From Novosphingobium sp. IK01 (GTDB lineage Bacteria; Pseudomonadota; Alphaproteobacteria; Sphingomonadales; Sphingomonadaceae): a stretch of DNA of 64,000 nucleotides. The notes under the pieces were generated by a model, which saw nothing but the letters and a program-made list of their open reading frames with translations, made no database searches and was not told the DNA's origin. Position 1 is the stretch's first letter. Each line of letters starts with the position of its first letter. The position numbers and the translations under genes are program-made. Below are positions 22,407 to 41,825 of the stretch, in pieces. The stretch lies in assembly GCF_033242265.1 (NCBI RefSeq), contig NZ_BTFW01000001.1, forward strand, positions 310,001-374,000. Reading direction: 5' to 3'.

Positions 22407-22424
22407 CACTTGATTATTCAAGTG
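22407..22424. promoter_or_regulatory. catabolic operator 1, amidase promoter
   Basis: CACTTGA-TTAT-TCAAGTG, a perfect 7-bp palindrome 21 bases before the amidase ATG and directly downstream of an AT-rich TATATAAC. Related sites occur at 31996, 36787, 41540 and 41808, with half-sites at 31916 and 33009. Confidence 0.75.
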
Positions 22425-22445
22425 ACATATCTTAGCCCTCTTCCC

Positions 22446-23621
22446 ATGCCAACGATCCCGAACATTTCCGGTGCAGACACCGCCAGAACCGGTTTGATCT
22501 GCTCATTCGAACTTGGCGAAGGCGCCCTGACTGCTTCGGTCAAGGATTGCATCGACATTGCCGGTCTGCCGACCCGTCAGGGCAGCGCGGTCTTTGCCGA
22601 GGCCGGGCCTGCGCTTGCCAATGCCGCTGTGGTCGACGCCTTGCTTGCTTCGGGGCGCTGGCGGATTGTCGGTAAGGCGGCGATGCATGAACTGGCCTTC
22701 GGGGTCACCGGGATCAATCCCTGGGGGGGCACGCCGGTCAACCCGCAGTGGCCGGACCGGATCGTGGGTGGGTCTTCCAGTGGTTCGGCTGCGGGCGTGG
22801 CGGCGGGTGTCGTCGATATGTCGGTCGGTTCGGACACGGGCGGATCTGTGCGTCTGCCTGCGGCCTGTTGTGGGGTGATCGGTTTCAAGCCCGGCTATGG
22901 GGTCGTCAGCCGCCAGGGGGTGAACCCTGCATACAGTTCGATCGATTGTGTCGGGCCGATTGCGCGCGACCTTGCGGTGATCGAAGCCGCGATGACGGCG
23001 ATGGTCGAAGGGTTTGCGCCTGTGGCCGCGCCGAAGGATTCTGATATCCGTCTGGTTCGCCTTTCGCCGGAGGTCAGCGAAGAGGTCGGCCAGGCTTTCG
23101 ATCTGGCGCTCTCGGGTCTGGCCACTCCTGTTCTCGACGCGCAACTGCCTTCCTTCGATGCGGCCTTTGATGCCAGTCTGGTTGTCATGGGGGCTGAAAA
23201 CTGGGCGGCGCTGGGGGCTTATGCCGATCATCCTGGCATGGGCGAGGACGTGCGCGCGCGCCTGAAGGCCGGTGGGCGCCATGACGCCGATGCGGTGGCG
23301 GCTGCCAAGGCTGTCGGCGCGCAACTGGCGCGGGAAATCGATGCGGTGCTTGAACAGGCCGATGCCCTCATCCTGCCCACCTTGCCAATCGTGCCGCCGT
23401 CGCTGGTCGAGGCGCAGGATGCCCGCGCCGTGGTGCCGCTGACGCGGTTGGTGCGACCTTTCAATCTTTCCGGCCATCCGGCCATCACTTTGCCGATCCG
23501 CACGGCGCAGGGGCTGCCGGTCGGCGTGCAACTGGTCGGGCGGCGGGGCGGAGATGCCGCCTTGCTGGCTCTGGCGACGACCATCGCCGCGCAACTTGGA
23601 CTTCAGGAGAAAGAGGCATGA
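22446..23621 (+). CDS. iacH: amidase, probable IacH of indole-3-acetate catabolism
   Basis: 391 residues of the amidase-signature family. The Ser-cisSer-Lys triad is K33 (SVKDCID), S110 (GGSSSGSAAG) and S134 (GSDTGGSVR), with the usual 24-residue spacing between the serines. ATG 22446 is chosen because the frame further upstream lies within the operator. It is first in an operon whose gene order H-A-B-I-C-D-E-G is that of iac clusters. IacH there acts on a ring-oxidised amide (lactam) intermediate of auxin breakdown. The overlap with the next gene is ATGA. Enzyme family is certain; the iac assignment rests on context. Confidence 0.82.
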   Translation: MPTIPNISGADTARTGLICSFELGEGALTASVKDCIDIAGLPTRQGSAVFAEAGPALANAAVVDALLASGRWRIVGKAAMHELAFGVTGINPWGGTPVNPQWPDRIVGGSSSGSAAGVAAGVVDMSVGSDTGGSVRLPAACCGVIGFKPGYGVVSRQGVNPAYSSIDCVGPIARDLAVIEAAMTAMVEGFAPVAAPKDSDIRLVRLSPEVSEEVGQAFDLALSGLATPVLDAQLPSFDAAFDASLVVMGAENWAALGAYADHPGMGEDVRARLKAGGRHDADAVAAAKAVGAQLAREIDAVLEQADALILPTLPIVPPSLVEAQDARAVVPLTRLVRPFNLSGHPAITLPIRTAQGLPVGVQLVGRRGGDAALLALATTIAAQLGLQEKEA

Positions 23622-24778
23622 GCGCCATGGTGCAACTGTCCGGTCAACCGACGGACGATCCGCTCGCGGCGCTTGAGGCGCTGCTGACAATGGTGGCGGA
23701 AAAAGCTGTGCAGTTCAGCGCCGAGCAGGAGGTGGATGCCGATACCGTCGCGGCGATGAAGGCCGCGGGGGTCTACCGCGCGCTGGTCCCCGTGCGTTTC
23801 GGAGGCGACGAAAAAAGTCCTTCCGATTTTCTGCGGCTGATCGAAAGCATTTCGGCGCGGGACGGTTCGGCGGGCTGGGTGGCCAGCTTCGGCGTGTCGC
23901 ACATGTATCTTGCCTCGATGCCCGCTGAAACGCTGGCGCAAGTCTATGCGGAAGGCCCCGATGTGGTCTTTGCCGGGACGATCTTTCCGCCCCAGAAGGC
24001 GGTCAGGGTTGAGGGCGGCTATCGCGTCTCGGGGCGCTGGCCCTTTGGCAGCGGATCGCCGGGCGCGGAACTGATCGGGGTGGGGATCAAGACGGACGAT
24101 CCCACGGGCACAGGCCTGCCGCGCATGGCGGTGATGCCGGCCCACAAGGTGCGGATCGAGCCTAACTGGGATGTGATCGGCCTGAAGGGCACGGGCAGCC
24201 ATGATCTGGTCGTCGAGGATGTGTTCGTGCCCGAGGCATGGACGTTCGTGCGCGGCGCGCCGCCGACCATCGATCTGGCCGCCTATCGCTATCCTTCCAT
24301 GGCGCTGGCGGCACAGGTTCTGGCCGTGGTGGGGCTGGGGGTTGCGCGGGCCGCGCTTGATCTGATGGGGAAGATGGCCGGCACGCGCGGTTCCATCACC
24401 GGCGCTCCGGTGATGGCCGAGCGCGCCAACGTGCAGATTGCGCTGGCCAAGGGCGAGGCTGCGTTGCGCGGGGCGCGGGCGTTCTTCTACGAGATCACCG
24501 ACGAGGTTTTCGCGGTGGTTCAGGCGGGTGACAAGCCGAGCCGCGAGCAGACCGCACTGGTGCGTCTGGCTGCCACGCAGGCCGCGCGCACCGGGGCCGA
24601 TGTGACCCGGCTGATGTTCGAACAGGCGGGCACTGCGGGCATCTTCAACAGCCATCCTTTCTCGCGCCTGCTTCAGGATGCGCTGGTCGTCTACCAGCAT
24701 GCCTTCCTCAACGAGGCCACCTGGCAGAGCGCGGGCCGCGTGTTGCTGGGGCTCGATGCCCCGGCTGGTTATCCTTGA
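23618..24778 (+). CDS. iacA: indole-3-acetate monooxygenase-like flavoprotein IacA
   Basis: 386 residues with the acyl-CoA-dehydrogenase fold of group D flavin monooxygenases (HsaA/HpaB-like), not a fatty-acid dehydrogenase. SARDGSAGWVAS is the characteristic N-terminal motif; the catalytic glutamate of acyl-CoA dehydrogenases is not evident. The C-terminus has FNSHPFSRLLQDALVVYQH. Such enzymes use reduced flavin supplied by a separate reductase, and a matching reductase gene (iacG) lies downstream in the same operon. In iac systems IacA performs the first oxidation of IAA. Confidence 0.82.
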   Translation: MSAMVQLSGQPTDDPLAALEALLTMVAEKAVQFSAEQEVDADTVAAMKAAGVYRALVPVRFGGDEKSPSDFLRLIESISARDGSAGWVASFGVSHMYLASMPAETLAQVYAEGPDVVFAGTIFPPQKAVRVEGGYRVSGRWPFGSGSPGAELIGVGIKTDDPTGTGLPRMAVMPAHKVRIEPNWDVIGLKGTGSHDLVVEDVFVPEAWTFVRGAPPTIDLAAYRYPSMALAAQVLAVVGLGVARAALDLMGKMAGTRGSITGAPVMAERANVQIALAKGEAALRGARAFFYEITDEVFAVVQAGDKPSREQTALVRLAATQAARTGADVTRLMFEQAGTAGIFNSHPFSRLLQDALVVYQHAFLNEATWQSAGRVLLGLDAPAGYP

Positions 24779-24837
24779 GGCCGGTTATCCCTGACGCCGG
24801 TTACCCCTGATCTGCGCTTCCATCGAAGGAACCATTC

Positions 24838-25200
24838 ATGACCGAGACCCCCGCAAAACCCCTTCGTGTCCTTTTCTGTTCGGCGGTGCTGCAGAACTTC
24901 TTTGACCTGCCTGCTGCCGAGATCGGCAAGGTCTGGGCGGCCACCGGCGAAATGCTCAAGGGCATCCGCGATCTGCCCGGTGTTACCGTGCTGGGCACGC
25001 TGGACGACGATGAAACCATGGTCGGCACTTCGCCCAATGGCTGGCCCTGGACGTTCTATATTCTGGCCGACGTGCCTGATCGTGCGACCGTGGTTGCGGC
25101 CTGCAACCTCTTTCGCACCATTCAGGTGGGCGAGCATCGCTTGTGGAAATACATGCGCGTGGAAGCCCGCATCGGTCGCGAGCTGGTGATCCCGGCATGA
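24838..25200 (+). CDS. iacB: IacB-like small protein
   Basis: 120 residues with GAAGGAACC upstream. PLRVLFCSAVLQNFFDLP, VTVLGTLDDDETMVG and GWPWTFYILADVPD suggest a ferredoxin-like alpha/beta fold as in dimeric EthD/ABM proteins. It occupies the iacB position between the monooxygenase and the SnoaL-like gene. The biochemical role of IacB is not established. Its C-terminus overlaps the next start. Confidence 0.72.
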   Translation: MTETPAKPLRVLFCSAVLQNFFDLPAAEIGKVWAATGEMLKGIRDLPGVTVLGTLDDDETMVGTSPNGWPWTFYILADVPDRATVVAACNLFRTIQVGEHRLWKYMRVEARIGRELVIPA

Positions 25201-25742
25201 TGAACGCGCCGTCCGGTCTGGCAGCGCTGGAGGCGCGAATTGCACGGCTTGAGGCGGAAAGGGTGATCCGGCAGGTCGTGACCACCTATTTCCGCCTGTG
25301 CGATACGCTGGGCCCGCAGACGGACTGGACGGCGATGGAGGCCTTGTTCACCCGCGAGGCCACATGGGAAGGGCGGGGGCGGTATCGCAAGGCCTTCGGC
25401 CGCCATGAAGGGCGCAGCGCCATCATGGCCATGCTGCGCAGTTATGCCGATCCTGCGCATTTCGTCCTCAATGCCCATTATCTGACAGGCGAGATCATCA
25501 CGGTCCATGAAGGGCCGGGCGCGGGCGCCAGTGCCCGCTGGATGATGCTTCAGGTCTCGACCTATCGCGATGGCCGGTCGGACCTGCGCAGCGCCGCGAT
25601 CGACGTCGAGATGGCGCAAGAGAACGGCCAATGGCGCATCGCCTGTTTTGTGACTGAAAACATCTTTTCCCGCGATGTGGGGCCGTGGAACGACGAGGCC
25701 CCCATTTCGGTACCTGATCCCTCCATGGAGAAAAGCGCATGA
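25197..25742 (+). CDS. iacI: SnoaL-like protein, IacI position
   Basis: 181 residues, ATGA overlap with iacB. A basic helix (EARIARLEAERVIRQ) leads into an NTF2/SnoaL-type cone (TAMEALFTREATWEG; AHFVLNAHYLTGEI; WRIACFVTENIF). Proteins of this fold serve as hydratases, isomerases or binding modules; the beta subunit of Rieske dioxygenases has the same fold. Position between iacB and iacC matches IacI. No catalytic residue can be assigned. Confidence 0.7.
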   Translation: MMNAPSGLAALEARIARLEAERVIRQVVTTYFRLCDTLGPQTDWTAMEALFTREATWEGRGRYRKAFGRHEGRSAIMAMLRSYADPAHFVLNAHYLTGEIITVHEGPGAGASARWMMLQVSTYRDGRSDLRSAAIDVEMAQENGQWRIACFVTENIFSRDVGPWNDEAPISVPDPSMEKSA

Positions 25743-27007
25743 GCAGCACAGATTATGCCGCGCTGGTCAAGGACGACCGCGTCCACACCGCGCTCTACAA
25801 GGACAGCGCGATCTTCGACGAGGAGATGGAGCGCATCTTCAAGAACACCTGGGTCTGGGTGGGCCATGAAAGCGAGCTGCCCGGCCCCAACACCTTCAAG
25901 AAGAGCTTCGTGGGCAACCAGCCCGTGATCGTCACCCGCGACAAGGCGGGCGAGATCCGCACCCTGCTCAACCGCTGCCGCCACCGCGCGGCGAGCGTGT
26001 GCGAAAAGAAGAAGGGCCGTCAGTCGGTCTTCGTCTGCCCCTATCATGGCTGGAGCTATGACATCGACGGGGGCCTGCGCAAGGTGCCCTATGCCGACGG
26101 CTATCGTGAAGGTCTCGACCGCGAGGAATTCGGCCTGACCCGCCTGCGCACCGAAGTCTATCAGGGCATGATCTTCGCTACTTTCAGGGACGACATCGAA
26201 CCGCTGGTCGATCATCTGGGCCCGGCGCGCAAGTGGATGGACCTGTTCATGAAGCAGGGCGCCGGCTTTGGCGTCAAGGTGCTGGGCGAACACCGTTTCC
26301 GCTTTCCCGGCAACTGGAAGATCCAGCTCGAAAACACCACCGACGCCTATCATTTCCCCATCGTTCACAAGACCTTCCTCGACAGCCTCGATGCCGAGAC
26401 CGAGAACATCTTCGATGTCATCGGCTCGGGGGGCTGGGTCGAGGATCTGGGCCATGGCCATTCGGTCATGGTGATGATCCCCGACCTGATCGACCTCGAA
26501 GACAATCTCGACGCGCCGATCCCGGAACGCTTCGCCCAACTGGCCGAAGAGCTGCGCGCCGAGGGCCATGACGAGCCGATGGTGCGCAAGATCGTGCGCG
26601 CGGTGGGCGGCACGGGGTTCAACCTCAACCTGTTCCCCAACGTGGCCTGCTCGATGGCCTTTTTCCGCGTGCTGCGCCCGGTGAGCGTCGACGAGACGGA
26701 AATCCAGCATGTCGCCATCGGCATGGGCGATGCCGCTTCCACGCCCTCGCCGGCGGGCAACCGCGCCCGCCTGCGCCTGCACGAGCATTTCCAGGGCCCG
26801 ATGGGCTTTGGCACGCCCGACGACGCGGAAGGCTGGGAACGGGTCCAGCGCGGCGCACAGGCGGGCGATGACCTGTGGATCATGCTCAATCGCGGGACGG
26901 ATGCCCCCGAAGGGCTTGCACAACCGGGGCACAATGCGGGCGATGCCTCCTCGGAAGTGGGCATGCGCGCGGCCTATCAGCAGTGGAAGAGGATGATGAC
27001 GGCATGA
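25739..27007 (+). CDS. iacC: Rieske ring-hydroxylating dioxygenase alpha subunit IacC
   Basis: 422 residues. The Rieske 2Fe-2S ligands are C80, H82, C100 and H103 (CRHRA, CPYHGW). The mononuclear iron site shows D202, H205 and H210 in TTDAYHFPIVHKT. Size and layout are those of the catalytic subunit. It is coupled to the beta subunit by ATGA. The operon has no ferredoxin or reductase gene, so electrons must come from elsewhere; iac clusters usually include iacF for this. Confidence 0.88.
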   Translation: MSSTDYAALVKDDRVHTALYKDSAIFDEEMERIFKNTWVWVGHESELPGPNTFKKSFVGNQPVIVTRDKAGEIRTLLNRCRHRAASVCEKKKGRQSVFVCPYHGWSYDIDGGLRKVPYADGYREGLDREEFGLTRLRTEVYQGMIFATFRDDIEPLVDHLGPARKWMDLFMKQGAGFGVKVLGEHRFRFPGNWKIQLENTTDAYHFPIVHKTFLDSLDAETENIFDVIGSGGWVEDLGHGHSVMVMIPDLIDLEDNLDAPIPERFAQLAEELRAEGHDEPMVRKIVRAVGGTGFNLNLFPNVACSMAFFRVLRPVSVDETEIQHVAIGMGDAASTPSPAGNRARLRLHEHFQGPMGFGTPDDAEGWERVQRGAQAGDDLWIMLNRGTDAPEGLAQPGHNAGDASSEVGMRAAYQQWKRMMTA

Positions 27008-27477
27008 GCATTGCATTCGAGGAAGCCACGCGTTTCATCTGGGCCGAAGCCGACATGCTCGACCGGCTTGACTACAAGCCGTGGCTGGCGCTGTGGACCG
27101 CAGAGGGCACCTATACCATCCCGGTCGACCATGACGGGCAGGACTTCGACAACCAGCTCAACGTCGTCCACGACAATGCCACCATGCGCGCGGCGCGGGT
27201 CAAGCGCCTGACTTCGGGCTTTTCGATGAGCTCGGCGCCGCCCGCGCGCACCGTGCGCACCGTCTCGCGCTTTGTCGTCACCGACGAGGCGGCCGACATG
27301 ATCGAACTGCGCGCGGCCATGGTGCTGGTCGAATACAAGTACGAGCGCACCCGCGTTCTGGCCGCCGACCTGACCTGCCGTCTGGTCCGCGAGGAAGGCG
27401 CGATCAGGCTGGCGCGCAAGATCGTCCGCCTCGCCAACTGCGACGATGCCCTTCACGGCATCGGATACCTGCTGTGA
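27004..27477 (+). CDS. iacD: ring-hydroxylating dioxygenase beta subunit IacD
   Basis: 157 residues, the length of aromatic dioxygenase small subunits. EADMLDRLDYKPWLALW followed by YTIPVDH is the family core. The overlap with iacC and with the next gene (GTGA) implies coupled translation, so subunit stoichiometry is set at translation. It forms the alpha-beta oxygenase with IacC. Confidence 0.87.
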   Translation: MSIAFEEATRFIWAEADMLDRLDYKPWLALWTAEGTYTIPVDHDGQDFDNQLNVVHDNATMRAARVKRLTSGFSMSSAPPARTVRTVSRFVVTDEAADMIELRAAMVLVEYKYERTRVLAADLTCRLVREEGAIRLARKIVRLANCDDALHGIGYLL

Positions 27478-28235
27478 GGGACGCGCCGGACATCCCCCCG
27501 GATACCGCTCTGGTCACGGGCGGGGGCAGCGGCCTTGGCGAGACCATCGTGCGCGGCCTCCATGGGGCCGGTTACCGCGTGGCGGTGACCGACATCGATG
27601 GCGACAAGGCGCAGGCCGTGGCGCGGACCCTCGACCCTGCGGGGGAAACCGCCATCGGCCTGCCGCTCGATGTCACCGATGCGGCGGCCATCGAAAGCGC
27701 CACCGCGCAGATCGAGGCGCGCTGGGGCGCGGTGCAGGTGCTGGTCAACAATGCCGTGCTCACCCGCGCGGTGCCCGTGCTCGACATCACGCTCGACGAC
27801 TGGGACCAGGTCATGGCCGTCAACGCGCGCGGCACTTTTGCCGCCAGCCAGATCCTGGCCCGCCGCATGAAGGCGGCCGGCTATGGCCGCATCGTCAACA
27901 TGGCCTCGCTGGCCGGGCAGAACGGCGGCACGGCAACCGGCGCGCACTATGCCGCCAGCAAGGGCGCGATCATCACGCTGACCAAAGTGTTCGCCCGCGA
28001 TCTGGCGCCTTTTGGCATCACGGTGAACGCCATTGCGCCCGGCCCCATCGACAGCCCGATGGTCCGCGCGCTGGTGCCCGCAGACAAGATGGCGGGCATG
28101 GTGGCGGGCATTCCGGTGGGCCGACTGGGCGACGCGGCCTTCATCGCCGACATGGTGGTGCGTCTGGCCGCGCGCGATGCCTGTTTCGTCACGGGCGCCA
28201 CATGGGACATCAACGGCGGCCTGTTCATGCGCTGA
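27474..28235 (+). CDS. iacE: short-chain dehydrogenase IacE
   Basis: 253 residues from a GTG that overlaps the iacD stop. TGGGSGLG near 15-22 binds cofactor, NNAVL near 94 takes the place of NNAG, and the catalytic pair is YAASK. In iac clusters IacE acts with IacA on the oxidised indole to give dioxindole-3-acetic acid. Context supports that role. Confidence 0.82.
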   Translation: MRDAPDIPPDTALVTGGGSGLGETIVRGLHGAGYRVAVTDIDGDKAQAVARTLDPAGETAIGLPLDVTDAAAIESATAQIEARWGAVQVLVNNAVLTRAVPVLDITLDDWDQVMAVNARGTFAASQILARRMKAAGYGRIVNMASLAGQNGGTATGAHYAASKGAIITLTKVFARDLAPFGITVNAIAPGPIDSPMVRALVPADKMAGMVAGIPVGRLGDAAFIADMVVRLAARDACFVTGATWDINGGLFMR

Positions 28236-28260: not shown

Positions 28261-28773
28261 ATGGTATCGCAACAGGATTTCCGGCGCGCCATGGCCGCGC
28301 TGCCGGCGGCGGTGAATATCATCACCACCGATGGCGCGGCGGGGCGTCAGGGCATGACCGCCACGGCGGTCTGTTCGGTCAGCGACGAACCGGCCTCGTT
28401 GCTGGTCTGCATCAACCGGAGCGCGCGCATCCATGACATGCTGCGCGACAATGGCCGCTTTTGCGTCAATGTTCTGGCGGCGGGGCAGGATGGTGTTTCG
28501 GGCGCCTTCTCGACCCGCGGCCTGTCCATCGACGAACGACTGGCGCGGGCCGGATCGGTGATCATGCTGGAAGATGGCCAACCGGCACTGGCCGAAGCTC
28601 AGGTGGCGCTGGGCTGCCGCGTTGTGCAGGTCATCGAGGCGGGCACCCATTCGATCTTCATCGGCGCGGTGGAGCAAGTGGTGAGCGGACAGGGCGTGGG
28701 GGCTCTGGCCTATTACGGGCGGGCCTATCACCATCTGGGCGGCGCGGCGCCGATGGCGGACGCTTGCGCATGA
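28261..28773 (+). CDS. iacG: flavin reductase IacG
   Basis: 170 residues of the HpaC/flavin-reductase-like FMN-binding family: FRRAMAALPAAVNIITT, GMTATAVCSVSDEPASLLVC and ARFCVNVL-like GRFCVNVLAA. It supplies reduced flavin to the oxygenase IacA. GGGGAGAG lies upstream. In other iac clusters iacF precedes iacG; here iacE is followed directly by iacG. Confidence 0.84.
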   Translation: MVSQQDFRRAMAALPAAVNIITTDGAAGRQGMTATAVCSVSDEPASLLVCINRSARIHDMLRDNGRFCVNVLAAGQDGVSGAFSTRGLSIDERLARAGSVIMLEDGQPALAEAQVALGCRVVQVIEAGTHSIFIGAVEQVVSGQGVGALAYYGRAYHHLGGAAPMADACA

Positions 28774-29573
28774 GCGCGGCACGCGAAACCGCCCGCGCCT
28801 TTGTGGCGGCGCGCAGGGCGGGGCGCGGGCTGGCGGAATGGCCCGGCGACCTGCCACGGGACATGGACGAAGCCTATGCCGTGCAGGCTGCGGTGCAAGC
28901 CTGCTGGGGCAGGCCGGTCGGCGGGGTCAAGGTGGGCCGCGTGCTGGGCGAATGGGCCGAGCGGTTCTCTGTCGACCGGTTCGTCGGCCCGATCTGCGCG
29001 GAAACCATCCAGCACCCGGCCCCCGGCGAGACCGCGCGCTTTCCGGTGATCGCGGGCGGCACGGCCCTGCTCGAATGCGAGGTGATCGCGGTTCTGGGCC
29101 GCGACGCCCCTGACGACACCGCCATCACGCCCGAGGCCGCGCGCGATCTGGTCGCCAGCCTGCATATCGGCATCGAGATCGCCGGAAGCCCGATGGCCGA
29201 CATCAATGCCCTGGGGCCGCTGGCCTCGATTGCCTGCTTTGGCAACAACAACGGCGCCATCGTGGGGCCGCCGATCCCTGCATGGCAGACACGCGACCTC
29301 GGCGCGCCGGGATGCGTGGCGCGTATCGACGGACAGGACGTGGGGCGCGGCGACACCTCCCGCCTGCCCGGCGGCCTCTGGGCCGCACTGGCGTTTGCCT
29401 GTAACCGGCAAGCCCGGCTCGGCAGCCCCCTGAAGGCGGGCGACATCGTTTGCACCGGGGCGCTGACGGGGATGCATCTCCTTGCCGTGGGCCAGCGCGC
29501 CCAGGCTGACTTCGGGCCGCTGGGGCAGGTAGACTGTCTGGCCGTGCCTGACGGGAATTCACCGCACAGTTGA
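28770..29573 (+). CDS. 2-keto-4-pentenoate hydratase-like protein
   Basis: 267 residues, ATGA overlap with iacG. The family signatures are VGGVKVGRVLGEW, LLECEVIAVLGRD, LHIGIEIAGSP and CTGALTGMH. The hydratase fold is shared with fumarylacetoacetate hydrolase and with oxalocrotonate decarboxylase. These enzymes act in catechol meta-cleavage, so the gene may act after IAA has been converted to catechol. It ends the iac operon. No ring-cleavage dioxygenase gene is visible in the window. Confidence 0.8.
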   Translation: MSAARETARAFVAARRAGRGLAEWPGDLPRDMDEAYAVQAAVQACWGRPVGGVKVGRVLGEWAERFSVDRFVGPICAETIQHPAPGETARFPVIAGGTALLECEVIAVLGRDAPDDTAITPEAARDLVASLHIGIEIAGSPMADINALGPLASIACFGNNNGAIVGPPIPAWQTRDLGAPGCVARIDGQDVGRGDTSRLPGGLWAALAFACNRQARLGSPLKAGDIVCTGALTGMHLLAVGQRAQADFGPLGQVDCLAVPDGNSPHS

Positions 29574-31915: not shown

Positions 31916-31927
31916 CACTTGAATAGT
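31916..31927. promoter_or_regulatory. operator half-site in iacR/panE intergenic region
   Basis: CACTTGAATAGT, identical over 12 bases to 33009-33020 before the MFS gene. The first half matches CACTTGA; the second half has decayed (TAAA). It lies between the MarR gene and the second ketopantoate-reductase gene. Confidence 0.45.
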
Positions 31928-31996
31928 AAACCTTTTTGGTGGCCCGGTCCCCCCTGTGCCCTGAAGGCTTGACAGGGCATTCGCGATGTGCGGCAA

Positions 31997-32012: not shown

Positions 32013-32031
32013 GAGTTGACGGGGCAGGGAC

Positions 32032-32949
32032 ATGGAAGCCGGGATGAAGATTGCGGTTGTGGGCGGCGGCGCGATGGGCTCGCTTTTCGCTGCGCGGCTG
32101 GCTGTGGCGGGCTTTGCGACAACGCTGGTCGAAGTCGATGCCGGGCGGCTGGAGCATATCTGCAAGGCAGGCGTGGTGGTCGATCTGGCCGGGCGGTGCA
32201 TCGTCGCTCCAGTGCCTTGCGTGCAGCCTGCCGATCTGGAGCGCGGGCAGGAACTGCTCATTCTCTTTACCAAATTCGCAGGCCTTTCCGCCGCTCTGGC
32301 CCAGTCGCGCCATGCTCTGGCACCCGAGGGCGTGGTGGCGGTGCTGTCCAATGGGCTGGGCATTGCCGGGCAACTGGAAGGTCTGATCCCGGAAAACAGG
32401 CTGGTGCTGGGCGTCAGCGATGTCGCGGCGGATCTGCGGGTGGACGGGGTGCACAGCGATGGCACGGGACTGGTGAAGCTCGGCATGGCCAATCCCGCCG
32501 ACGATCCAGCGCCGCTGGCACGGGTGCAGTCGGTGCTGGAAACAGCCGGATTTTCTGCCCATGCGATGCCCGATATCCGGCAGGCCATTTGGGAAAAACT
32601 GGCTTTCAATGCGGCGTTCAACGCCGTGGCGACACTGGCTGATGCCCGTGTTTGCGATCTCGACAATGTGCCGGGACGGCGGATCGTTGCCGCAATTCTG
32701 GCCGAAGTCGGTTCGGTGGCGCGCGCCGGGCAGGTGCCGTTCGATCATGCAGCGGTCAGCGCCCGCATCGAACAGGCTTTTTTGCGGCAGGGCGAGCATC
32801 GCCCGTCCATGGCGCAGGACCGCCGCGCCGGGCGTCGCACCGAAATCGGGGCCATCAATGGTGCGATTGCCGCGCGCGGCGAAGAGTGGGGGGTGCCGGT
32901 GCCGATCAACCGGACGCTTACCGATCTGGTGTGCCTGACGGGGGGATAG
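32032..32949 (+). CDS. second ketopantoate reductase-like dehydrogenase
   Basis: 305 residues from ATG 32032; ATG 32044 removes four. MKIAVVGGGAMGSLFAARLA binds cofactor. IRQAIWEKLAFNAAFNAVAT and RPSMAQDRRAGRRTEIGAIN are the C-terminal family signatures. It is a paralogue of the protein at 30351 rather than a copy. It is divergent from the MarR gene, and the palindrome at 31997-32012 precedes it. It probably belongs to the same regulon; substrate unknown. Confidence 0.82.
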   Translation: MEAGMKIAVVGGGAMGSLFAARLAVAGFATTLVEVDAGRLEHICKAGVVVDLAGRCIVAPVPCVQPADLERGQELLILFTKFAGLSAALAQSRHALAPEGVVAVLSNGLGIAGQLEGLIPENRLVLGVSDVAADLRVDGVHSDGTGLVKLGMANPADDPAPLARVQSVLETAGFSAHAMPDIRQAIWEKLAFNAAFNAVATLADARVCDLDNVPGRRIVAAILAEVGSVARAGQVPFDHAAVSARIEQAFLRQGEHRPSMAQDRRAGRRTEIGAINGAIAARGEEWGVPVPINRTLTDLVCLTGG

Positions 32950-33007: not shown

Positions 33008-33022
33008 TCACTTGAATAGTGA
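33008..33022. promoter_or_regulatory. operator-like site, MFS promoter
   Basis: TCACT-TGAAT-AGTGA is a 5-bp inverted repeat that contains the CACTTGA half-site and repeats the 12-mer seen at 31916. It lies about 31 bases before the MFS start. A TATATATC stretch follows at 33023-33030. Confidence 0.5.
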
Positions 33023-33053
33023 TATATATCGAGGCAGTCTTCGGCCATCCGGC

Positions 33054-34496: not shown

Positions 34497-35522
34497 TTAT
34501 TCTTGCGGGCCCCTTATCACCGGCATCATGTCGCGATGGCGCAGCAGGGCCAGGAATTCGCTCAGGCGTCCTGCCCGATAGGCTCCCAGATCCACCCCGG
34601 CATAATCATAGAAGCCCTTGCCCTCGCGCATGCCGTTGCGCCCGCTGGCCATGTTCCGGGCGACCACCTCCGGTGCGGCAAAGCGCCGGGGATCGAGCGT
34701 GCCGGACAGGTACTGGCTGGCGTGGAACAGAATGTCGCCGCCGCCCCAGTCGATGAATTCGAGCAAGCCCAGCACGGCAAAACGGAAGCCGAAGCCGACA
34801 CGGATGGCCGTATCGACATCCTGCGCGCTGGCGACGCCTTCCTCGACCAGCCTTGCCGCCTCGTTCATCGCCAGGGCCTGAATACGCGGCACGATATAAC
34901 CGGGCGAAGAACGGCAGACCACCGGCACCTTGCCGATGCTGCGCAGCATGGCGCAGAGTTTCTCGACCAGTGCGGCATCGCTTGAACTGGCCGGGCTCAC
35001 CTCCACGAGGGGCACGAGATGGGCCGGATTGAGCCAATGGGCATTCATGAACCGCCCCGGATCGGGCACCATGGCAGCCAGCGTTTCGGCATCGATCGTC
35101 GAGGTGGTCGAGGCGATCAGGGCCTGCGCCCTTGCATGGGCTCCGATTGCGGCGAAGGCATCGGCCTTGGCGGGGAGCGTTTCGGGAACCGCTTCGAAGA
35201 TCAGGTCGCAGTCTGCCAGCAGGGCAGGGGCCTGCGCTGCGCGGGCGATGGTGACATCGGCCAGCACGCTGGCCGCCGTTGCCGCATCGACAAGGCCTGC
35301 TTCGCGCAGGAAATCGACATCGCGGGCGATGTCGTCGCGGGCCTGCCGGCTCAGCCGTGCGAAGTCGGCCTCTTCACGCTGGCGAAGGTCCAGCAGGCGG
35401 ACCTTGTGGCCCGCCAGGGCAAAGCTGGTGGCGATCCCCCGTCCCATTCGTCCTGCCCCGACGATCCCGATGATCTCCGTTCGGGCGGGCGGGCTGCCCG
35501 GCGTGGCTGCCTCAGAAGCCAT
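34497..35522 (-). CDS. 3-hydroxyacyl-CoA dehydrogenase-family protein
   Basis: 341 residues from ATG 35522. IIGIVGAGRMGRGIATSFAL binds NAD, ASTTSTIDAETLA and RFMNAHWLNPAHLVPLVEV form the central family core, and VCRSSPGYIVPRIQALAMNE with GFRFAVLGLLEF belongs to the C-terminal domain. The start overlaps the stop of the opine-dehydrogenase-like gene by 11 bases. The final domain is single, so it is not a fused FadB type. The substrate may be a 3-hydroxy acid or a CoA ester. Confidence 0.85.
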   Translation of the reverse strand: MASEAATPGSPPARTEIIGIVGAGRMGRGIATSFALAGHKVRLLDLRQREEADFARLSRQARDDIARDVDFLREAGLVDAATAASVLADVTIARAAQAPALLADCDLIFEAVPETLPAKADAFAAIGAHARAQALIASTTSTIDAETLAAMVPDPGRFMNAHWLNPAHLVPLVEVSPASSSDAALVEKLCAMLRSIGKVPVVCRSSPGYIVPRIQALAMNEAARLVEEGVASAQDVDTAIRVGFGFRFAVLGLLEFIDWGGGDILFHASQYLSGTLDPRRFAAPEVVARNMASGRNGMREGKGFYDYAGVDLGAYRAGRLSEFLALLRHRDMMPVIRGPQE

Positions 35523-36594
35523 GATGCAGCCGTTCCTGAAGGTCTGCCGGGCTGTCACCGGCAAGGCCGAGGTTCTCGAAAGTGCGCCCGGCGGCATAGA
35601 GATCCTCGCCGGTGATCGCGCTGGCCAGTGCCAGCAGGCCTTCGCCCACGGCCATCGGCTGCCCCGCCCAGCGGCCTGCCGAGACGAACAGGGCAAGACC
35701 GATCGCGGTATCCTCGCGCATGTAGCGATGGGTCTGGAGGTCGATCTTCTCGCGCCAGTCGCCGCTGTCGGTCAGTTTTTCATGAGCGGAATTGCCATAC
35801 ATCCATTCCTCGCCATCCTTGCTGTAATGGTCGGCCAGCGGGAAGTGCGGGGCTGGATATCCCAGCTTTTCGCGGATCGCCATGCGCTCCCCATCCAGCG
35901 CATTGGTCACCGCACGGATCGAGGGCTGGGTGCCCTCGTTGTGAATGTCCCAGGCGTCGAAATGTTCGAGCGGGCCTGCATTCATCATGATGAGGGGCGG
36001 ATGGATGATCGGCCCGGCGTTCATCAGCGCGCCCGAGAGGATGTCGCCGCAAGGCTCGACAGAAGGATAGGCCTGTTGCAGCAAGCCGATCACCTCATCG
36101 GCATCTGCGGCGGGGAAGACCCCGGTGGGCAGCCGCGTGGCATAGACGCTCACGACGATGCTGGCGGGCCCATGCTTGCGCACCAGATAGGGCAGCGTGC
36201 CGGTTTCGGCGAAACGCACGCGGGCCTGGTTGCCCGCAGCGCGCGCAGCCTTGACGAACAGCAGCGAGCCCAGTGTGCCGGGCGGGAGGAAGACCACCTG
36301 ACCATCGCGCCAATGCGGAGCGCAAGCTTTGGCCAGATCCTCGTGTGCGGTGGCGGGCAAGGGGATGATCACCAGTTCGGTTGCCGCAAGAGCGGCGCCA
36401 AGATCGCTTTCCAGATGGGCGACGGGCACGATGCGGGTTCCGGCATGGTCGCGCACCTCGATGCCGCCCTGTTCGCGGATGGCCTCGAAAGCGGCGGCAT
36501 CGCGCCGCCAGAACCAGACTTCGTGCCCCCTGGCGCTCAATTCGGCCGCCGCCGCATAACAGCCATGGCCCCCACCCAGTACAGCGATCCGCAT
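35512..36594 (-). CDS. octopine/opine dehydrogenase-family protein
   Basis: 360 residues from ATG 36594, with AAGGAG seven bases upstream. MRIAVLGGGHGCYAAAAEL opens the Rossmann domain. The C-terminal domain contains GPIIHPPLIMMNAGPLEH with the His/Asp region typical of the NAD/NADP octopine/nopaline family. In the family these enzymes reductively couple an amino acid and a 2-oxo acid, or reverse the reaction. It is first of two genes on the reverse strand and is divergent from the FMN dehydrogenase. Substrate unknown. Confidence 0.83.
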   Translation of the reverse strand: MRIAVLGGGHGCYAAAAELSARGHEVWFWRRDAAAFEAIREQGGIEVRDHAGTRIVPVAHLESDLGAALAATELVIIPLPATAHEDLAKACAPHWRDGQVVFLPPGTLGSLLFVKAARAAGNQARVRFAETGTLPYLVRKHGPASIVVSVYATRLPTGVFPAADADEVIGLLQQAYPSVEPCGDILSGALMNAGPIIHPPLIMMNAGPLEHFDAWDIHNEGTQPSIRAVTNALDGERMAIREKLGYPAPHFPLADHYSKDGEEWMYGNSAHEKLTDSGDWREKIDLQTHRYMREDTAIGLALFVSAGRWAGQPMAVGEGLLALASAITGEDLYAAGRTFENLGLAGDSPADLQERLHHGF

Positions 36595-36786: not shown

Positions 36787-36804
36787 TACTGGAATTTTCA
36801 ATTG
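36787..36804. promoter_or_regulatory. degenerate catabolic operator, divergent promoter
   Basis: TACTGGA-ATTT-TCAATTG matches CACTTGA-N4-TCAAGTG at 11 of 14 positions. It lies between the opine-dehydrogenase unit and the FMN dehydrogenase, 43 bases before ATG 36847. Confidence 0.4.
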
Positions 36805-36846: not shown

Positions 36847-38067
36847 ATGGTGCAAGACGATTTTCCCCCACATGGGATTCCCCGGCATGGAGTCGGGGCA
36901 CACGGTCGCCTGTCTCGCAGCCTTTTGTCATGCGGGGCGGTGGGGGGCGCTGTCCTGCCCTTGCGGCGCTATCGGCGCGGAGGGCCGGTTGACCGTGCGC
37001 TTTCGATTGCCGAGTTGCGGGCCATGGCCCTGCACCGGTTGCCTGCCATTGCCGCCGAATATCTGGAGGGCGGGGCCGAAGAGGAAGTGTCGCTGCAAGC
37101 CAATCGTGCGGCCTTCGACAGGCTGCGCTTCCGTCCGCGTCTGGCCGAGGGGGCGCAGGGGGGGCAGGGCTTCCCCTATGTCATCGCGCCCACCGGGTTG
37201 AACGGGCTCTACTGGCGCGGCGCCGACATGGCGCTGGCCCGCGCGGCGGCGGCGGCGGGCGTGCCGTTTACCCAGAGCACTGTCTCCAATGTCAGGCTTG
37301 AGGAAATTGCGGCGGTTCCGGGGATCGACCACTGGTTCCAGCTCTACCTGTTCAGCCAGATGGCCATGGTGGAGCAATTGCTGGCGCGGGCGGCAGGGGC
37401 GGGCGTGCGAACGCTGGTGGTGACGGTGGACGCCAACACCTTCGGCAACCGTGAATGGAACACGCGGCTCTATGCCGCCGAGGCGCGCCCGAGCTTTGCG
37501 GCAAGGCTGGACGTGCTGCGTCACCCGCGCTGGCTGGCGCAGGTCTATCGTCATGGCCTGCCGGGGTTTCCCAATATCGCGGAATGGCTGGGCGAAGGCG
37601 CGGGCGATCTGCTTCAGGCCAGCCAGTGGCTGCGCTGCAATATCGCGCCCACCGTCAGATGGGAGGAATTGGCCCAAGTGCGGCGCCTGTGGAGCGGGCG
37701 GATGCTGGTCAAGGGGATCGGCCATGTCGCCGATGCGCGGCGGGCCATGGCGCTGGGCGCCGATGGCGTGGTGCTGGGCAATCATGGCGGGCGCCAGCTT
37801 GATGGCGCGGTCTCGGGCATGGACCTGCTGGCCGAAACGCGCGAGGCTTTGGGCGAGAAGGCCATGGTGCTGGTCGAAGGCGGCATCCGGCGCGGAACGG
37901 ATCTGCTCAAGGCGCAGCGGCTGGGAGCCGATGCGGCGATGGGCGGGCGGGCGACGCTTTATGGCGTGGCGGTTGCTGGCGAGGCGGGCGCGGCGCGGGC
38001 GCTGGCGATCCTGCGGCAGGAGTATGAGCGCAGCCAGATCCTGTTGGGCGATGGCGATGTGGTGTGA
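36847..38067 (+). CDS. FMN-dependent alpha-hydroxy-acid dehydrogenase
   Basis: 406 residues if started at ATG 36847; a TTG at 36961 is an alternative, since the family core begins at ALSIAELRAMALHRLP. The catalytic and FMN-binding elements are in order: VIAPTGLNGL, QLYLF, VVTVDAN, LVKGIGHVADA, VVLGNHGGRQLDG (catalytic His/Arg) and LVEGGIRRGTD. Members oxidise lactate, glycolate, mandelate and similar acids. It is the last metabolic gene before the AraC regulator. The substrate cannot be assigned. Confidence 0.85.
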   Translation: MVQDDFPPHGIPRHGVGAHGRLSRSLLSCGAVGGAVLPLRRYRRGGPVDRALSIAELRAMALHRLPAIAAEYLEGGAEEEVSLQANRAAFDRLRFRPRLAEGAQGGQGFPYVIAPTGLNGLYWRGADMALARAAAAAGVPFTQSTVSNVRLEEIAAVPGIDHWFQLYLFSQMAMVEQLLARAAGAGVRTLVVTVDANTFGNREWNTRLYAAEARPSFAARLDVLRHPRWLAQVYRHGLPGFPNIAEWLGEGAGDLLQASQWLRCNIAPTVRWEELAQVRRLWSGRMLVKGIGHVADARRAMALGADGVVLGNHGGRQLDGAVSGMDLLAETREALGEKAMVLVEGGIRRGTDLLKAQRLGADAAMGGRATLYGVAVAGEAGAARALAILRQEYERSQILLGDGDVV

Positions 38068-38128: not shown

Positions 38129-39058
38129 ATGGGGGCGTCGTTTCCGCAGCAGTTCGAATCGCGCGATGCCGTCGCGGTGGTCGATGCCGTGTCGCGCATT
38201 CTGGCGCCGCACGAGATGGATGTGCGGCATCCCGGCCAGACGATCCGCGCGCATGTGCGCCATGTGCAACTGGCCTCCTGCCGTCTGGCCGACCTGACGT
38301 ATGGTGCGGCGGTGCGCATTCGCTCGCGCGTGCCGGCAGACCGCATTCTGGTCCACACCGTGATCGAGGGGCAGAGCCGCATGGCGCTTTCGGACGGGCG
38401 CACGCGCGTTCTGGACGAGGGGGCGATGCATGTCTCCATGCCGGGGGCTCCGCTGGCCATCGCTTTCGGGAGCAGCAGCAGGCATATGACCGCCAATCTG
38501 CCTGTCAGCCTCTGGCCCGCCGCCGCAGCTTTTCGCGAGGAGGAGCGCAGCCCGATGGTGGCGCTGGACGATAGTTCGGCTGGCGTCTGGCTTGATCTGA
38601 TGCGTTTCGCGCTGGGCTGGGGGGAGATCGGCAGCCGGGTGCTACAGGATTCTGCAGGGCATATTGCCGCGCTGATCGGCGATTTTCTGTGTGATCGTGT
38701 CACCATCGAGGGGGCTGCGGGGGGGGCGGTGCCCTGGTTCGTGGTGCAGGCCCGCGCGCTGATGACCGAGCTTGTCCGCTCAGGCCAGGAGGTCATTACG
38801 CCGGGGCAGGTGGCAGCGCAGGTCGGTGTGGGCCTGCGCACCTTGCAGATGGGGTTCCGCCGTTTTGTGGGGCGCAGTTTTGGCGAGGACCTGCGCGAGC
38901 AGCGCCTGCATGAACTGCACCGGTTGATCGCCGTTTCCTCGGGTCAGGACGATGTCACCACGCTCATGCATGCCTGCGGGATCGTCAGCACCGGGCGGTT
39001 TGCGGGCTATTATCGCGAACGGTTCGGCATGCTGCCTTCGACGCAGCTGCGCGGGTAA
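38129..39058 (+). CDS. AraC-family transcriptional regulator
   Basis: 309 residues from ATG 38129, with AGGAAGG upstream. The N-terminal 190 residues have a cupin-like AraC-binding fold (LVHTVIEGQSRMALSDGRT). Two HTH motifs follow, with VAAQVGVGLRTLQMGFRRF and VSTGRFAGYYRERFGMLPS the final signature. It lies 61 bases after the FMN dehydrogenase and is convergent with the TonB receptor. It may regulate part of the island. Confidence 0.87.
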   Translation: MGASFPQQFESRDAVAVVDAVSRILAPHEMDVRHPGQTIRAHVRHVQLASCRLADLTYGAAVRIRSRVPADRILVHTVIEGQSRMALSDGRTRVLDEGAMHVSMPGAPLAIAFGSSSRHMTANLPVSLWPAAAAFREEERSPMVALDDSSAGVWLDLMRFALGWGEIGSRVLQDSAGHIAALIGDFLCDRVTIEGAAGGAVPWFVVQARALMTELVRSGQEVITPGQVAAQVGVGLRTLQMGFRRFVGRSFGEDLREQRLHELHRLIAVSSGQDDVTTLMHACGIVSTGRFAGYYRERFGMLPSTQLRG

Positions 39059-39120: not shown

Positions 39121-41448
39121 TTACTGGAAGCGCCAGCCCGCCGTAATGCCATACGTGCGCGGCATTCCGGCAAAACGTGCAGCCACGTCGGGGCCTGCAT
39201 AGGACACGTTGGTCCAGTAGTAGGCGTTGTTGAGATTGTGCACGAAGGCCGAGAAGCGCCACTTGTCGTCTGCGGTGTGCACACCGGCACGCAGATCGAC
39301 CAGCGTATAGGCGTTGACGGCAAAGAGGCTCTGCGCGCCCAGCGCCGAATTGGTCGCGCTCTGATACGTGGCCGATGCGCCGATGAAGCCGTTGAAGGTC
39401 TGGCTGATCGGGCGATCATAGCCGATATCGCCGGTCAACTGCCATTTCGGGGTCAGCGGGAAGGCTTCGCCGCTCATCAGCATGGCTGTGCCAGTGGGGG
39501 TGAAGTTGGAGAAATCGCCCAGAATCTTCGAGCCGATATACGTGGCCCCGGCATTGATCGTCAGGCCCTTTACAGGCTCTGTCACCAGTTGCAGTTCGGC
39601 GCCCGCGATACGGCTCTTGGGGATGTTGATCAGGCGGTTCAGTCCGCCGAGCACCGCATCGATCACACGACCGCGGATTTGCTTGTTGCGATAGTCGTAA
39701 TAGAAGGCCGCGCCGTTCAACTGCACCTTGCGGTCCAGCAGGCTCAGCTTGAAGCCGGCTTCATAGGCCAGCACCGATTCCTGCGTGGCCGGGGCCAACT
39801 GGGCCGCAAACGTGGCGCCGGTGGTGATGAAGACGCCGTTCTTGTAGCCCTTGCTGATGGTGGCATAGAGCAGCTTGTGAGGCGCCACTTCCCAGTTCAC
39901 GCCCGCCTTCCACGAGACATTGCCCTGGTTGAGCGAGTCCTGATAGTAAGAAGGCTTGTAGGTGGTGGAGCTGATCGTCACGCAGGAGCCCGGCGCGATG
40001 GTGGTGGTGGAGCCGCTCAGCCTGGTTGAGGCCGACGCCACCACGGCCGCCAGATCGCCCGCGCCGGAATCGAACAGGCAGCCCACATAATCGCGGAACT
40101 GGTACGAGTAGCGCACCCCGCCCGTCAGCGTGACCTTGGGCAGCACCTGCCAGTCGACATTGGCGAAGGCAGAATAGGTATTGACCTGATTATGCCCCAT
40201 CGCGGTTGCGGCCTTGAAGGGGAAGCTGGAACTGGAGGCCTGCGGCGAGAACGTATCGTAGGTCGCGTCGTTCTGGTAGTTGCCGCCCACCATCCAGTTG
40301 ACGTGATCACCATATTTCCCGGCCAGGCGCAGTTCCTGCGAGAAGCTCTTGATATAGCCCTTGTTGCCCGCCGTGAAATTGTTCACGGCCAGGCCGTCGG
40401 CATCGGTCAGCGTATCGCGGTGAAGCTTCTGGTAGGCCGTGATCGAGGTGAGCTTCAGATCATCGGTGAAGTCGTAATTGGTGCGCAGCGCGATCTGGTA
40501 GAAGTTGTCGTGGGTGTAGAAACGGGTGTTCGGATCCCAGTCTGCGCTCTGGGCATTGCCCGCCGTGGTGGCGGCGCCCGCGACATTGGCCGGGGCCCTG
40601 GTGGAGATCACCCCGACATACTGCCCGGCTTGCGGTGTCGAGCGGTCGATCCAGCCATTGGCGTTCAATTCGAAGGTCAGCTTGTCGTTGGCGTCCCAGT
40701 CGAGCAGGATGCGGCCCTGGGTGCGGTCGGTGCCGCCGGTGCGATCGCCGGGGCGGGTGGCGCTCTGTTGCCAGGGGCCCGAGGATTCGCGGCGAATGGC
40801 GATGCGGCCGCGCAGCGTGTCGGTGATCGGGCCGCTCAGGAATGCGCTGCCGGTGAAGCTGTCGAAGCGGCCAAAGCTGGCGTCGGCGCCCGCCTGCAAG
40901 GTCTTGGTGGGTTTGGCGGCGATGTAGTTGATCGCGCCGCCGGTCGAATTCTGGCCGAAGAGCGTGCCCTGCGGCCCCTTAAGCACTTCGACGCGCTGCA
41001 CATCCAGCGCCGCGCCCTGTGCCATCACCGAGTAGGGCAGCGGCACTTCATCGACATAGACCGAAACCGGAGGAGCGGCGGCCAGCGTGGTTTCGTTGAA
41101 GCCCACCCCGCGCAGCGTATAGACCGGCGTGCCATAAGTGCTGCGCGTATAGTTGAAGCCGGGGACGGCCTTGACGAGATCGGCGGTGTTGAGGATCCCC
41201 TGCTTGGCCAGCGTATCGCCGGTCAGCGCGTTGATCGACATGCCGATCGAGTTGCTCGATTCCTGCTTCTTGCGTGCGGTCACCACGATATCGCCGACAC
41301 CGGCAGGTTCTTCTGCTGCGGGTGCTGCTGCCGGCGGGGCGGCGGGAGCCGTTTCTTCAGCGCGGGCGGAGGCGGAAGAGGCCCCCAGCAGCAGCGCTGT
41401 CACGGCGCAAGTATTCATCCACGAAGCTTGCTTGACTGCCTTTTGCAT
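39121..41448 (-). CDS. TonB-dependent outer-membrane receptor
   Basis: 775 residues. A signal peptide (about 1-30) is followed by an Ala/Pro-rich spacer, a TonB box (DIVVTARKKQE), a plug domain (about 60-170, with VEVLKGPQGTLFGQNSTGG) and a 22-strand barrel ending in the terminal aromatic FQ. This is the sphingomonad type used for uptake of aromatics, plant compounds and siderophores. The operator-like palindrome at 41538-41559 precedes it, so it may be regulated with the iac genes. It is a candidate outer-membrane importer of the island substrate. Confidence 0.92.
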   Translation of the reverse strand: MQKAVKQASWMNTCAVTALLLGASSASARAEETAPAAPPAAAPAAEEPAGVGDIVVTARKKQESSNSIGMSINALTGDTLAKQGILNTADLVKAVPGFNYTRSTYGTPVYTLRGVGFNETTLAAAPPVSVYVDEVPLPYSVMAQGAALDVQRVEVLKGPQGTLFGQNSTGGAINYIAAKPTKTLQAGADASFGRFDSFTGSAFLSGPITDTLRGRIAIRRESSGPWQQSATRPGDRTGGTDRTQGRILLDWDANDKLTFELNANGWIDRSTPQAGQYVGVISTRAPANVAGAATTAGNAQSADWDPNTRFYTHDNFYQIALRTNYDFTDDLKLTSITAYQKLHRDTLTDADGLAVNNFTAGNKGYIKSFSQELRLAGKYGDHVNWMVGGNYQNDATYDTFSPQASSSSFPFKAATAMGHNQVNTYSAFANVDWQVLPKVTLTGGVRYSYQFRDYVGCLFDSGAGDLAAVVASASTRLSGSTTTIAPGSCVTISSTTYKPSYYQDSLNQGNVSWKAGVNWEVAPHKLLYATISKGYKNGVFITTGATFAAQLAPATQESVLAYEAGFKLSLLDRKVQLNGAAFYYDYRNKQIRGRVIDAVLGGLNRLINIPKSRIAGAELQLVTEPVKGLTINAGATYIGSKILGDFSNFTPTGTAMLMSGEAFPLTPKWQLTGDIGYDRPISQTFNGFIGASATYQSATNSALGAQSLFAVNAYTLVDLRAGVHTADDKWRFSAFVHNLNNAYYWTNVSYAGPDVAARFAGMPRTYGITAGWRFQ

Positions 41449-41537
41449 AGATACCCCACATGAATGTCGATGCGCTCACCTGAATGCCGGGCCCTGTCTG
41501 TCAGAGGTTATCTGCCGGGGCTCGACCTGTTATTATT

Positions 41538-41559
41538 TTCACTTGATATTTCATGTGAA
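41538..41559. promoter_or_regulatory. catabolic operator, TonB receptor promoter
   Basis: TTCACTTGA-TATT-TCATGTGAA, 22 bases, symmetric except one position. The core CACTTGA-N4-TCATGTG has one mismatch from the consensus. It lies about 90 bases upstream of the receptor start. Confidence 0.6.
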
Positions 41560-41807
41560 TATGAATGCGGAATCCGGTGTCGGGTCAATAGGAAAATTGA
41601 TCCAACTCAATTATTTTTGAATTTTTTTGGCCTGCCTGTTGCGGATGCAAAATTGATAATTGTTAAATAACAATTGTTTGTCTTGATTATGTGTGCGCTG
41701 CGGCGAGCGCCTCGGCAGGGCGGGGTGGTTCTTGCGGAATGGGGTCGATTCGATCGGATGCAGAATTGTGGCGTGAAGGAATGAAGTCCTGCAACGCCTT
41801 AAAACAT

Positions 41808-41825
41808 CACTTGAAGCTTCAAGTG
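41808..41825. promoter_or_regulatory. catabolic operator, aldolase promoter
   Basis: CACTTGA-AGCT-TCAAGTG, an 18-bp perfect palindrome of the same class as 22407-22424. The bases around it are AT-rich, and the aldolase ATG is about 123 bases downstream. Confidence 0.7.

Follow-up and report, generated by a model that had tools for sequence, protein, structure and literature searches.

Gene Content of the Island

The window, a 64,000-nucleotide stretch of the 3.77-Mb genome of Novosphingobium sp. IK01 (contig NZ_BTFW01000001.1, positions 310,001 to 374,000), carries a catabolic island between a Vut_1-type transporter gene (21518-22273) and rimP-nusA-infB (from 43.4 kb). The island contains an iac-type operon, probably for oxidation of the auxin indole-3-acetic acid (IAA), and the gene of a MarR-family regulator, IacR. 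Copies of an 18-bp palindrome, with the consensus TACTTGAATATTCAAGTA, lie upstream of eight gene starts of the island. The sites, their rarity in the genome, the orthology of the regulator, the co-occurrence of regulator and operator, and the gene content were computed. The genes follow each other in the order below (window coordinates, strand).

22446..23621, +: amidase, iacH-like, gene 1 of the iac operon
23618..24778, +: iacA-like flavin monooxygenase (acyl-CoA dehydrogenase fold)
24838..25200, +: putative iacB-like protein, 120 aa, without a Pfam family
25200..25742, +: SnoaL-like, iacI-like
25739..27007, +: Rieske oxygenase alpha, iacC-like
27004..27477, +: ring-hydroxylating dioxygenase beta, iacD-like
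27474..28235, +: short-chain dehydrogenase/reductase (SDR), iacE-like, GTG start
28261..28773, +: flavin reductase, presumably iacG-like; labelled through the flavin reductase annotation of the K. aerogenes homologue, not through Pfam
28770..29573, +: FAA-hydrolase / 2-keto-4-pentenoate-hydratase-like, final gene of the iac operon
29600-30088: Lrp-type regulator, within the Lrp/PanE1 pair (29600-31307)
31321..31776, -: iacR, MarR family (5e-7), 151 aa, GTG start; matches 7kua (6.3e-29), 7l19, and 7l1i
32032..32949, +: PanE/ApbA-like reductase (PanE2), TIGR00745 above cut-off
33054..34418, +: major facilitator superfamily (MFS) transporter
34497..35522, -: 3-hydroxyacyl-CoA dehydrogenase family, PRK08269 above cut-off; start uncertain, ATG at 35522 likely
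35512..36594, -: opine dehydrogenase family, in line with the preceding gene
36850..38067, +: flavin mononucleotide (FMN)-dependent 2-hydroxyacid dehydrogenase, mandelate-dehydrogenase-like, GTG start
38129..39058, +: AraC-family regulator, 61 bp downstream of the FMN dehydrogenase
39121..41448, -: TonB-dependent receptor
41949..42680, +: class II aldolase/adducin family

Homologues of iacA, B, C, D, E, G, H, and I were present within one cluster. These labels were given by Pfam family, gene order, and recurrence in other species, and not by comparison with published Iac sequences. The iacB-like protein showed 53-96% identity to its matched counterparts in the iac clusters of relatives, and most of the 36 dereplicated iacR loci from other species (described below) hold several of the same iac genes. 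Among the examined genes of the island, the only part of the genome covered, no iacF (reductase component) was seen; the iac cluster of K. aerogenes has a gene annotated as flavodoxin reductase. The Lrp-type regulator and the second PanE-like gene form a divergent pair inside the island without an IacR site, and they may be controlled separately.

Predicted Operator Sites

Seven predicted operators were located in the island. Their scores and ranks refer to a palindromic matrix trained on other species.

22407..22424: CACTTGATTATTCAAGTG, before the amidase/iac operon, 23.6 bits, rank 2
31916..31933: CACTTGAATAGTAAACCT, 139 bp before the iacR start, 16.3 bits, rank 5
31996..32013: AAGTTGAATATTCAACTG, between the divergent iacR and PanE2 genes, 25.9 bits, rank 1
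33009..33026: CACTTGAATAGTGATATA, 27 bp before the MFS start, 14.4 bits, rank 7
36787..36804: TACTGGAATTTTCAATTG, between the opine dehydrogenase (-, 192 bp) and FMN dehydrogenase (+, 45 bp) genes, 20.4 bits, rank 3
41540..41557: CACTTGATATTTCATGTG, 91 bp before the TonB receptor start, 17.2 bits, rank 4
41808..41825: CACTTGAAGCTTCAAGTG, 123 bp before the class II aldolase start, 16.1 bits, rank 6

The site at 22407..22424 immediately follows TATATAA and lies 21 bp from the ATG of the iac operon, and the site at 31996..32013 lies 18 bp from the ATG of PanE2. The sequence-only reading of this DNA had reported perfect copies of CACTTGA-N4-TCAAGTG at 22407 and 41808, a one-mismatch copy at 41540, a related palindrome AGTTGA-ATAT-TCAACT at 31997-32012, an 11/14 match at 36787, and two half-sites at 31916 and 33009 sharing the 12-mer CACTTGAATAGT. 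All were recovered at these coordinates, and the two supposed half-sites scored as listed above against the full matrix.

Derivation of the Motif from Other Species

One genome per species was scanned, which gave 45 iacR loci. L060, which comes from the same species as the window, and L104, with 24% identity, were set aside and seven near-copies were dropped, leaving 36 loci. In the 400 bp upstream of the iacR match of these loci, 4096 six-base half-sites were enumerated with spacers of 0-10, a total of 45,056 palindromes. ACTTGA-N4-TCAAGT ranked top of all, being present in 11/36 loci against 0.3 expected in shuffles. A matrix was obtained by palindrome-constrained expectation-maximisation from 90 palindrome-like seeds, using 85 regions upstream of iacR, iacH, and iacA in the 36 loci, with the window excluded. 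It converged on an 18-bp palindromic matrix of ~20 bits, with TACTTGAATATTCAAGTA as consensus, present in ~58% of the 85 regions; the best ten runs agreed. On the 64-kb window, ranks 1-7 were the seven named sites (25.9-14.4 bits), and the next best match scored 8.7 bits.

Rarity in the Window and in the Genome

With up to three mismatches to CACTTGA-N4-TCAAGTG, the window held six matches against 1.48 expected, and none of 100 shuffles reached six. One of the six, at 16237 outside the island, fell below the top 25 of the matrix in the window and is probably a chance match. Over the 3.77-Mb genome, the same palindrome with up to two mismatches occurred at five places, compared with one for the reversed control. 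The three copies with at most one mismatch were all inside the island and the two 2-mismatch places were elsewhere. The exact form ASTTGANNNNTCAAST (ASTTGA-N4-TCAAST) occurred at three places in the genome, every one in the island. Allowing one mismatch added 41541 and three places outside the island (reversed control, three). Other genome matches had low matrix scores: C1:1414251 (11.6 bits), 1536294 (4.7 bits), 1153849 (7.6 bits), 2998661 (7.7 bits), and C2:11993 (−1.8 bits).

Among 630 permuted half-site palindromes, only the observed one had three window copies at up to one mismatch (mean 0.011); at up to three mismatches, 24 of the 630, the observed one included, did equally well in the window. 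Shuffled windows (n = 60) gave a mean of 0.067 sites of at least 14 bits. Column-permuted palindromic matrices (n = 500) gave a mean of 0.18 sites and never more than four. In 400 kb of the same genome (20 stretches of 20 kb) a single site of at least 14 bits was observed, within a long coding frame that we take to be of flagellar-hook type. At this rate, the Poisson probability of finding seven sites within 19.4 kb is near 1e-13. The island shows a common predicted operator before several transcription units that is rare elsewhere in the genome, as expected of a local regulon of a single regulator.

Some of the single sites are imperfect, which would suit a chance similarity or a repeat family without a regulatory role. 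Against this stand the tests in the genome itself, the shuffles, the permuted matrices, and the cross-species comparison. As a matrix trained elsewhere ranks all seven sites on top, chance is in effect refuted, and we give this explanation practically no weight.

Identity of the Regulator

The closest PDB relatives of the window MarR protein were 7kua (104 bits), 7l19 (91 bits), and 7l1i (58 bits), ahead of IadR 7kfo (51 bits). A legend in PMC11630574 lists the first three as the IacR structures from P. putida, E. soli, and A. baumannii. The MarR protein at 31321-31776 is, by sequence, the IacR orthologue, and its gene stands beside the iac catabolic genes. The IacR of L060, a metagenome-assembled genome (MAG) of Novosphingobium capsulatum, was 99% identical to it, and the next-best IacR match in the window's own genome was only 27% identical. 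The N. capsulatum MAG also carries a second iac cluster, L062 (DQVI01000093.1), with an IacR 60% identical to that of the window.

Conway et al. name residues of IacR that contact IAA (PMC9613470). Y28, W46, and R47 were invariant in 12 aligned IacR orthologues, the window's included. In a register that depends partly on an assumed tag length, they would fit the contacts named in that paper, a Tyr of the iac branch and a Trp-Arg pair. The window IacR deviates at two places, having ALY where 9/11 other orthologues have GRY and TMM where 11/11 have TMT. These departures, together with the presence of enzymes that do not belong to the named iac genes (mandelate-dehydrogenase-like, opine dehydrogenase, aldolase, and two PanE-like), would favor an IacR that binds the sites and responds to something other than IAA, whether a pathway intermediate, a conjugated auxin, or a related aryl or indole acid. 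The island, however, holds homologues of the named iac genes except iacF, and the IacRs of three genera bind IAA (PMC9613470). We therefore regard a different inducer or substrate as rather unlikely.

Co-occurrence of Regulator and Operator

The 36 training loci (670 kb) contained 92 sites of at least 12 bits, distributed over 33/36 loci, whereas shuffles gave ~4. Of these sites, 74 were within 450 bp of a labelled gene start. The palindrome accompanies iacR in both Alpha- and Gammaproteobacteria. An independent set was formed from 14 iacR loci that were fetched after training or kept outside it; L161 was excluded because it partly duplicates a training locus (25% of its 25-mers shared). Among the remaining 13 loci, 11 had a site of at least 12 bits and 10 had a site of at least 15 bits. 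At the higher threshold 13 sites were observed against ~0.8 in shuffles, and at the lower one 17 against ~5.

Five loci with iacA and no iacR nearby had no site of at least 12 bits (0/5; best 8.8 bits). Compared with 10/13 at 15 bits or more, this gave a hypergeometric probability of ~0.007. A Fisher value of 7.5e-5 for iacR-bearing versus iacR-less loci includes the training loci and is not to be relied on. A general iac-promoter element independent of IacR was rejected on the same five loci, a small sample.

The sequence-only reading had proposed the MarR protein in the middle of the island as the natural binder. This proposal passed the tests open to computation, in which the palindrome was top upstream of iacR and accompanied iacR, and IacR is the probable binder. 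The island also encodes an AraC protein (38129-39058) and an Lrp protein (29600-30088), and some relatives have an AraC homologue close to iac; the palindromes could then bind one of these two, with IacR controlling the iac operon only. Several results speak against this. An AraC homologue was present in 5/36 loci, with flanks of up to 10 kb on each side, yet sites were present in 33/36. In those five loci the AraC gene has a site of its own in front, which makes AraC an apparent target. The sites lie upstream of iacR and were absent from the five loci lacking it, and AraC proteins usually bind direct repeats. Binding by AraC or Lrp is, in our judgment, very unlikely.

Several observations weigh against a general IacR operator or against the way it was found. 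Three training loci (L065, L074, L079; 3/36) and two independent loci (L156 and L162) had no site of at least 12 bits, and L158 reached only 12.5 bits; the five loci without a site count against universality. In AT-richer loci, chance alone yields an appreciable number of matches at 12 bits or more (5.2 expected over 14 loci). The iacR-less control is small: three of its five loci are fuller iac clusters, two hold little besides iacA, and one of the genomes (G331) has a weak IacR-like protein elsewhere. Inside the island, the sites at 31916 and 33009 agree with CACTTGA-N4-TCAAGTG at only 10/14 positions, and PanE1 and Lrp (29600-31307) have no site. With three promoters predicted, a sigma-70 scan did no better than shuffles (3.1). 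Modelled in Infernal, the motif was recovered solely at 31997 in the window and genome, which we ascribe to the filters losing an 18-position model. Half-site permutation over whole loci of relatives was not clean, as 23 others of 629 equalled the hits at up to three mismatches, and it is uninformative because it is confounded by coding sequence. Finally, the exact ACTTGAN4TCAAGT was present in 8/298 family genomes and its reversed control in 9/298, so the core count alone is uninformative and only its association with iacR is telling. Six of the eight genomes were among the 12 with an iacR match above 110 bits, a cut-off chosen after the list was seen, compared with 1/9 for the reversed control (Fisher 2.7e-8). 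The six include the window's own genome, and in G174 and G277 the sites are on contigs other than that of iacR.

Proposed Mechanism of Control

From the combined sequence evidence, the island very probably constitutes a self-regulating IacR repressor regulon, relieved by IAA, that covers the iac operon and the TonB, MFS, PanE-like, opine and FMN dehydrogenase, and aldolase genes. We infer here the binding, IAA as the inducer, repression as the sign of control, the promoter positions, and the substrates of the extra enzymes. An IacR dimer would occupy the palindrome before eight gene starts, namely those of the iac operon, iacR, PanE2, MFS, opine dehydrogenase (with 3-hydroxyacyl-CoA dehydrogenase), FMN dehydrogenase (with AraC), TonB receptor, and aldolase. 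Because the sites of the iac operon and PanE2 end 18-21 bp before the start codon, a bound dimer would cover the core promoter or the start of transcription there and block it. The region between iacR and PanE2 holds two sites, so IacR probably restrains its own expression, with 31916..31933 as the probable autoregulatory site of iacR. IAA would bind IacR and release it from the DNA, and uptake, ring oxidation, and side enzymes would be induced together. The site distances would fit a MarR dimer at the transcription start that is released by IAA, as was shown for IadR and reported for IacR (PMC9613470).

The distances to the start vary, being 18-45 bp for iacH, PanE2, MFS, and FMN dehydrogenase and 91-192 bp for TonB receptor, aldolase, iacR, and opine dehydrogenase. 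This spread could indicate that IacR is an activator or a dual regulator at some promoters. Such a role seems unlikely, since IadR is a repressor relieved by IAA and the IacR of E. soli is described likewise (PMC9613470).

Comparison with Known Systems

Repression of iac by IacR is already known; it was reported in E. soli (PMC9613470), and PMC9711524 refers to an IacR operator as "previously identified", attributing it to Shu et al. 2015. The iac loci of P. putida 1290, E. soli LF7, and A. baumannii resemble the window in having an orthologous MarR regulator, of the fold that binds IAA, with iac-type genes adjoining. The window differs from them by its seven predicted operators and eight gene starts, including those of the TonB, MFS, opine and FMN dehydrogenase, and aldolase genes. 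IadR (MarR_73) of Variovorax paradoxus CL14 is a MarR repressor with a 24-bp site upstream of degradation genes and is released by IAA (PMC9613470). In contrast to the window IacR, it belongs to another MarR branch (51 vs 104 bits) and to another locus type.

In the iac cluster of Marinomonas sp. NFXS50, iacR adjoins class II aldolase, 2-dehydropantoate reductase, and transport genes, and an alpha-hydroxy acid dehydrogenase gene lies further along; unlike in the window, the transporters are of ABC type (PMC11373566). The main text of that paper contains neither "promoter" nor "palindrom". The sphingomonads Sphingomonas Root50, Root720, and Root1294 degrade IAA and have iac operons with IacR, but they differ in having two IacR genes per cluster (PMC11630574), and "palindrom", "promoter", and "TonB" are absent from the main text of that paper. 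In the Root720 locus (L066) we observed a site, CACTTGACATTTCAACTA, at 740, ~135 bp before an AraC-like match. Neither the operator consensus nor a regulon with TonB, MFS, and extra enzymes was found in the literature listings and passages covered by the search.

Auxin breakdown by root bacteria alters plant growth. A transferable IacR operator would allow regulons to be predicted in sequenced degraders, and the TACTTGA-N4-TCAAGTA code would, if true, make such regulons readable from sequence across Proteobacteria. Such an operator would also point to candidate outer- and inner-membrane auxin transporters, would give the aldolase, PanE-like, and dehydrogenase genes labelled "of unknown function" a testable place in auxin metabolism, and would supply defined operators for IAA biosensors.

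The Probable Wider Regulon in Relatives

Beyond iacH, iacA, and iacR, sites in the training loci precede TonB receptors (7/36 loci), AraC (5), PanE-like (3), and MFS (1) genes, none of whose promoters were among those chosen for training. Sites also precede the FAA hydratase in three loci, two of which share the iacH intergenic region. The sequence-only reading had joined uptake, auxin oxidation, and the extra enzymes into one regulon. This claim is backed by the recurrence of sites before TonB, MFS, PanE-like, and AraC genes in other loci, and the joined regulon thus appears to be a recurrent arrangement. It did not hold for the Lrp/PanE1 pair, and the opine/FMN dehydrogenase site had no counterpart found in relatives. 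Homologues of the FMN dehydrogenase were detected only in L060 among the 79 loci searched. The TonB receptors near sites were only distantly alike (23-39% identity). The iacH site was 9-16 bp from the estimated start in L061, L062, L069, L076, and L087, and farther elsewhere.

Seventeen frames downstream of selected sites, mostly without a label, were scanned with Pfam. Among the families assigned were aldehyde dehydrogenases, DctP binding proteins, xylose-isomerase-like proteins, a family-3 glycosidase, an amidohydrolase, an AMP-binding enzyme, and an M20 peptidase whose nearest relative is a poly-aspartate hydrolase; 2/17 frames had no family. Because the IacR sites of relatives precede TonB receptors and the M20 peptidase, glycosidase, amidohydrolase, and aldehyde dehydrogenases, the regulon might be a scavenging system for conjugated and free auxin with a dedicated TonB-dependent outer-membrane receptor, a reading that we put forward tentatively and consider doubtful. 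These enzymes could free IAA from its amino-acid, sugar, and aldehyde forms. If so, the TonB receptor, amidase, and opine dehydrogenase of the window would fill those roles.

In Caulobacter sp. 602-1 the longest frame of an M20 peptidase (L067:8388-9740) begins 2 bp after a predicted IacR site. The protein most resembles poly(aspartic acid) hydrolase, has a weak likeness to IAA-amino acid hydrolase, and is a candidate IAA-aspartate hydrolase. Two tandem palindromes with the core TTGAATATTCAA, with starts exactly 32 bp apart, were observed between iacH and an iacR-like gene (L063:15017-15066, L082:11229-11278) and are perhaps a variant operator for a second IacR. In Sphingosinicella, a near-perfect site (26.6 bits; L077:4265, L078:4263) lies where the local Rieske/SDR genes are only ~30% like iac. 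The gene that follows the L077 site is AMP-binding (CoA-ligase-like), and a pathway other than iac may be under the control of an IacR relative there. A class II aldolase and a PanE-like reductase also occur near iacR in L099, L092, L088, L149, and L160, from taxa that include Azospirillum, Pseudooceanicola, a genome of another class, and an Acinetobacter plasmid.

To the left of the island, the window contains a PhageMin_Tail tail protein (8987-11455) and, at 21.2 kb, a tRNA-Arg gene (21238-21314, -). Within positions 1-21314 there is perhaps a prophage at the tRNA, beside the catabolic island and separate from it.

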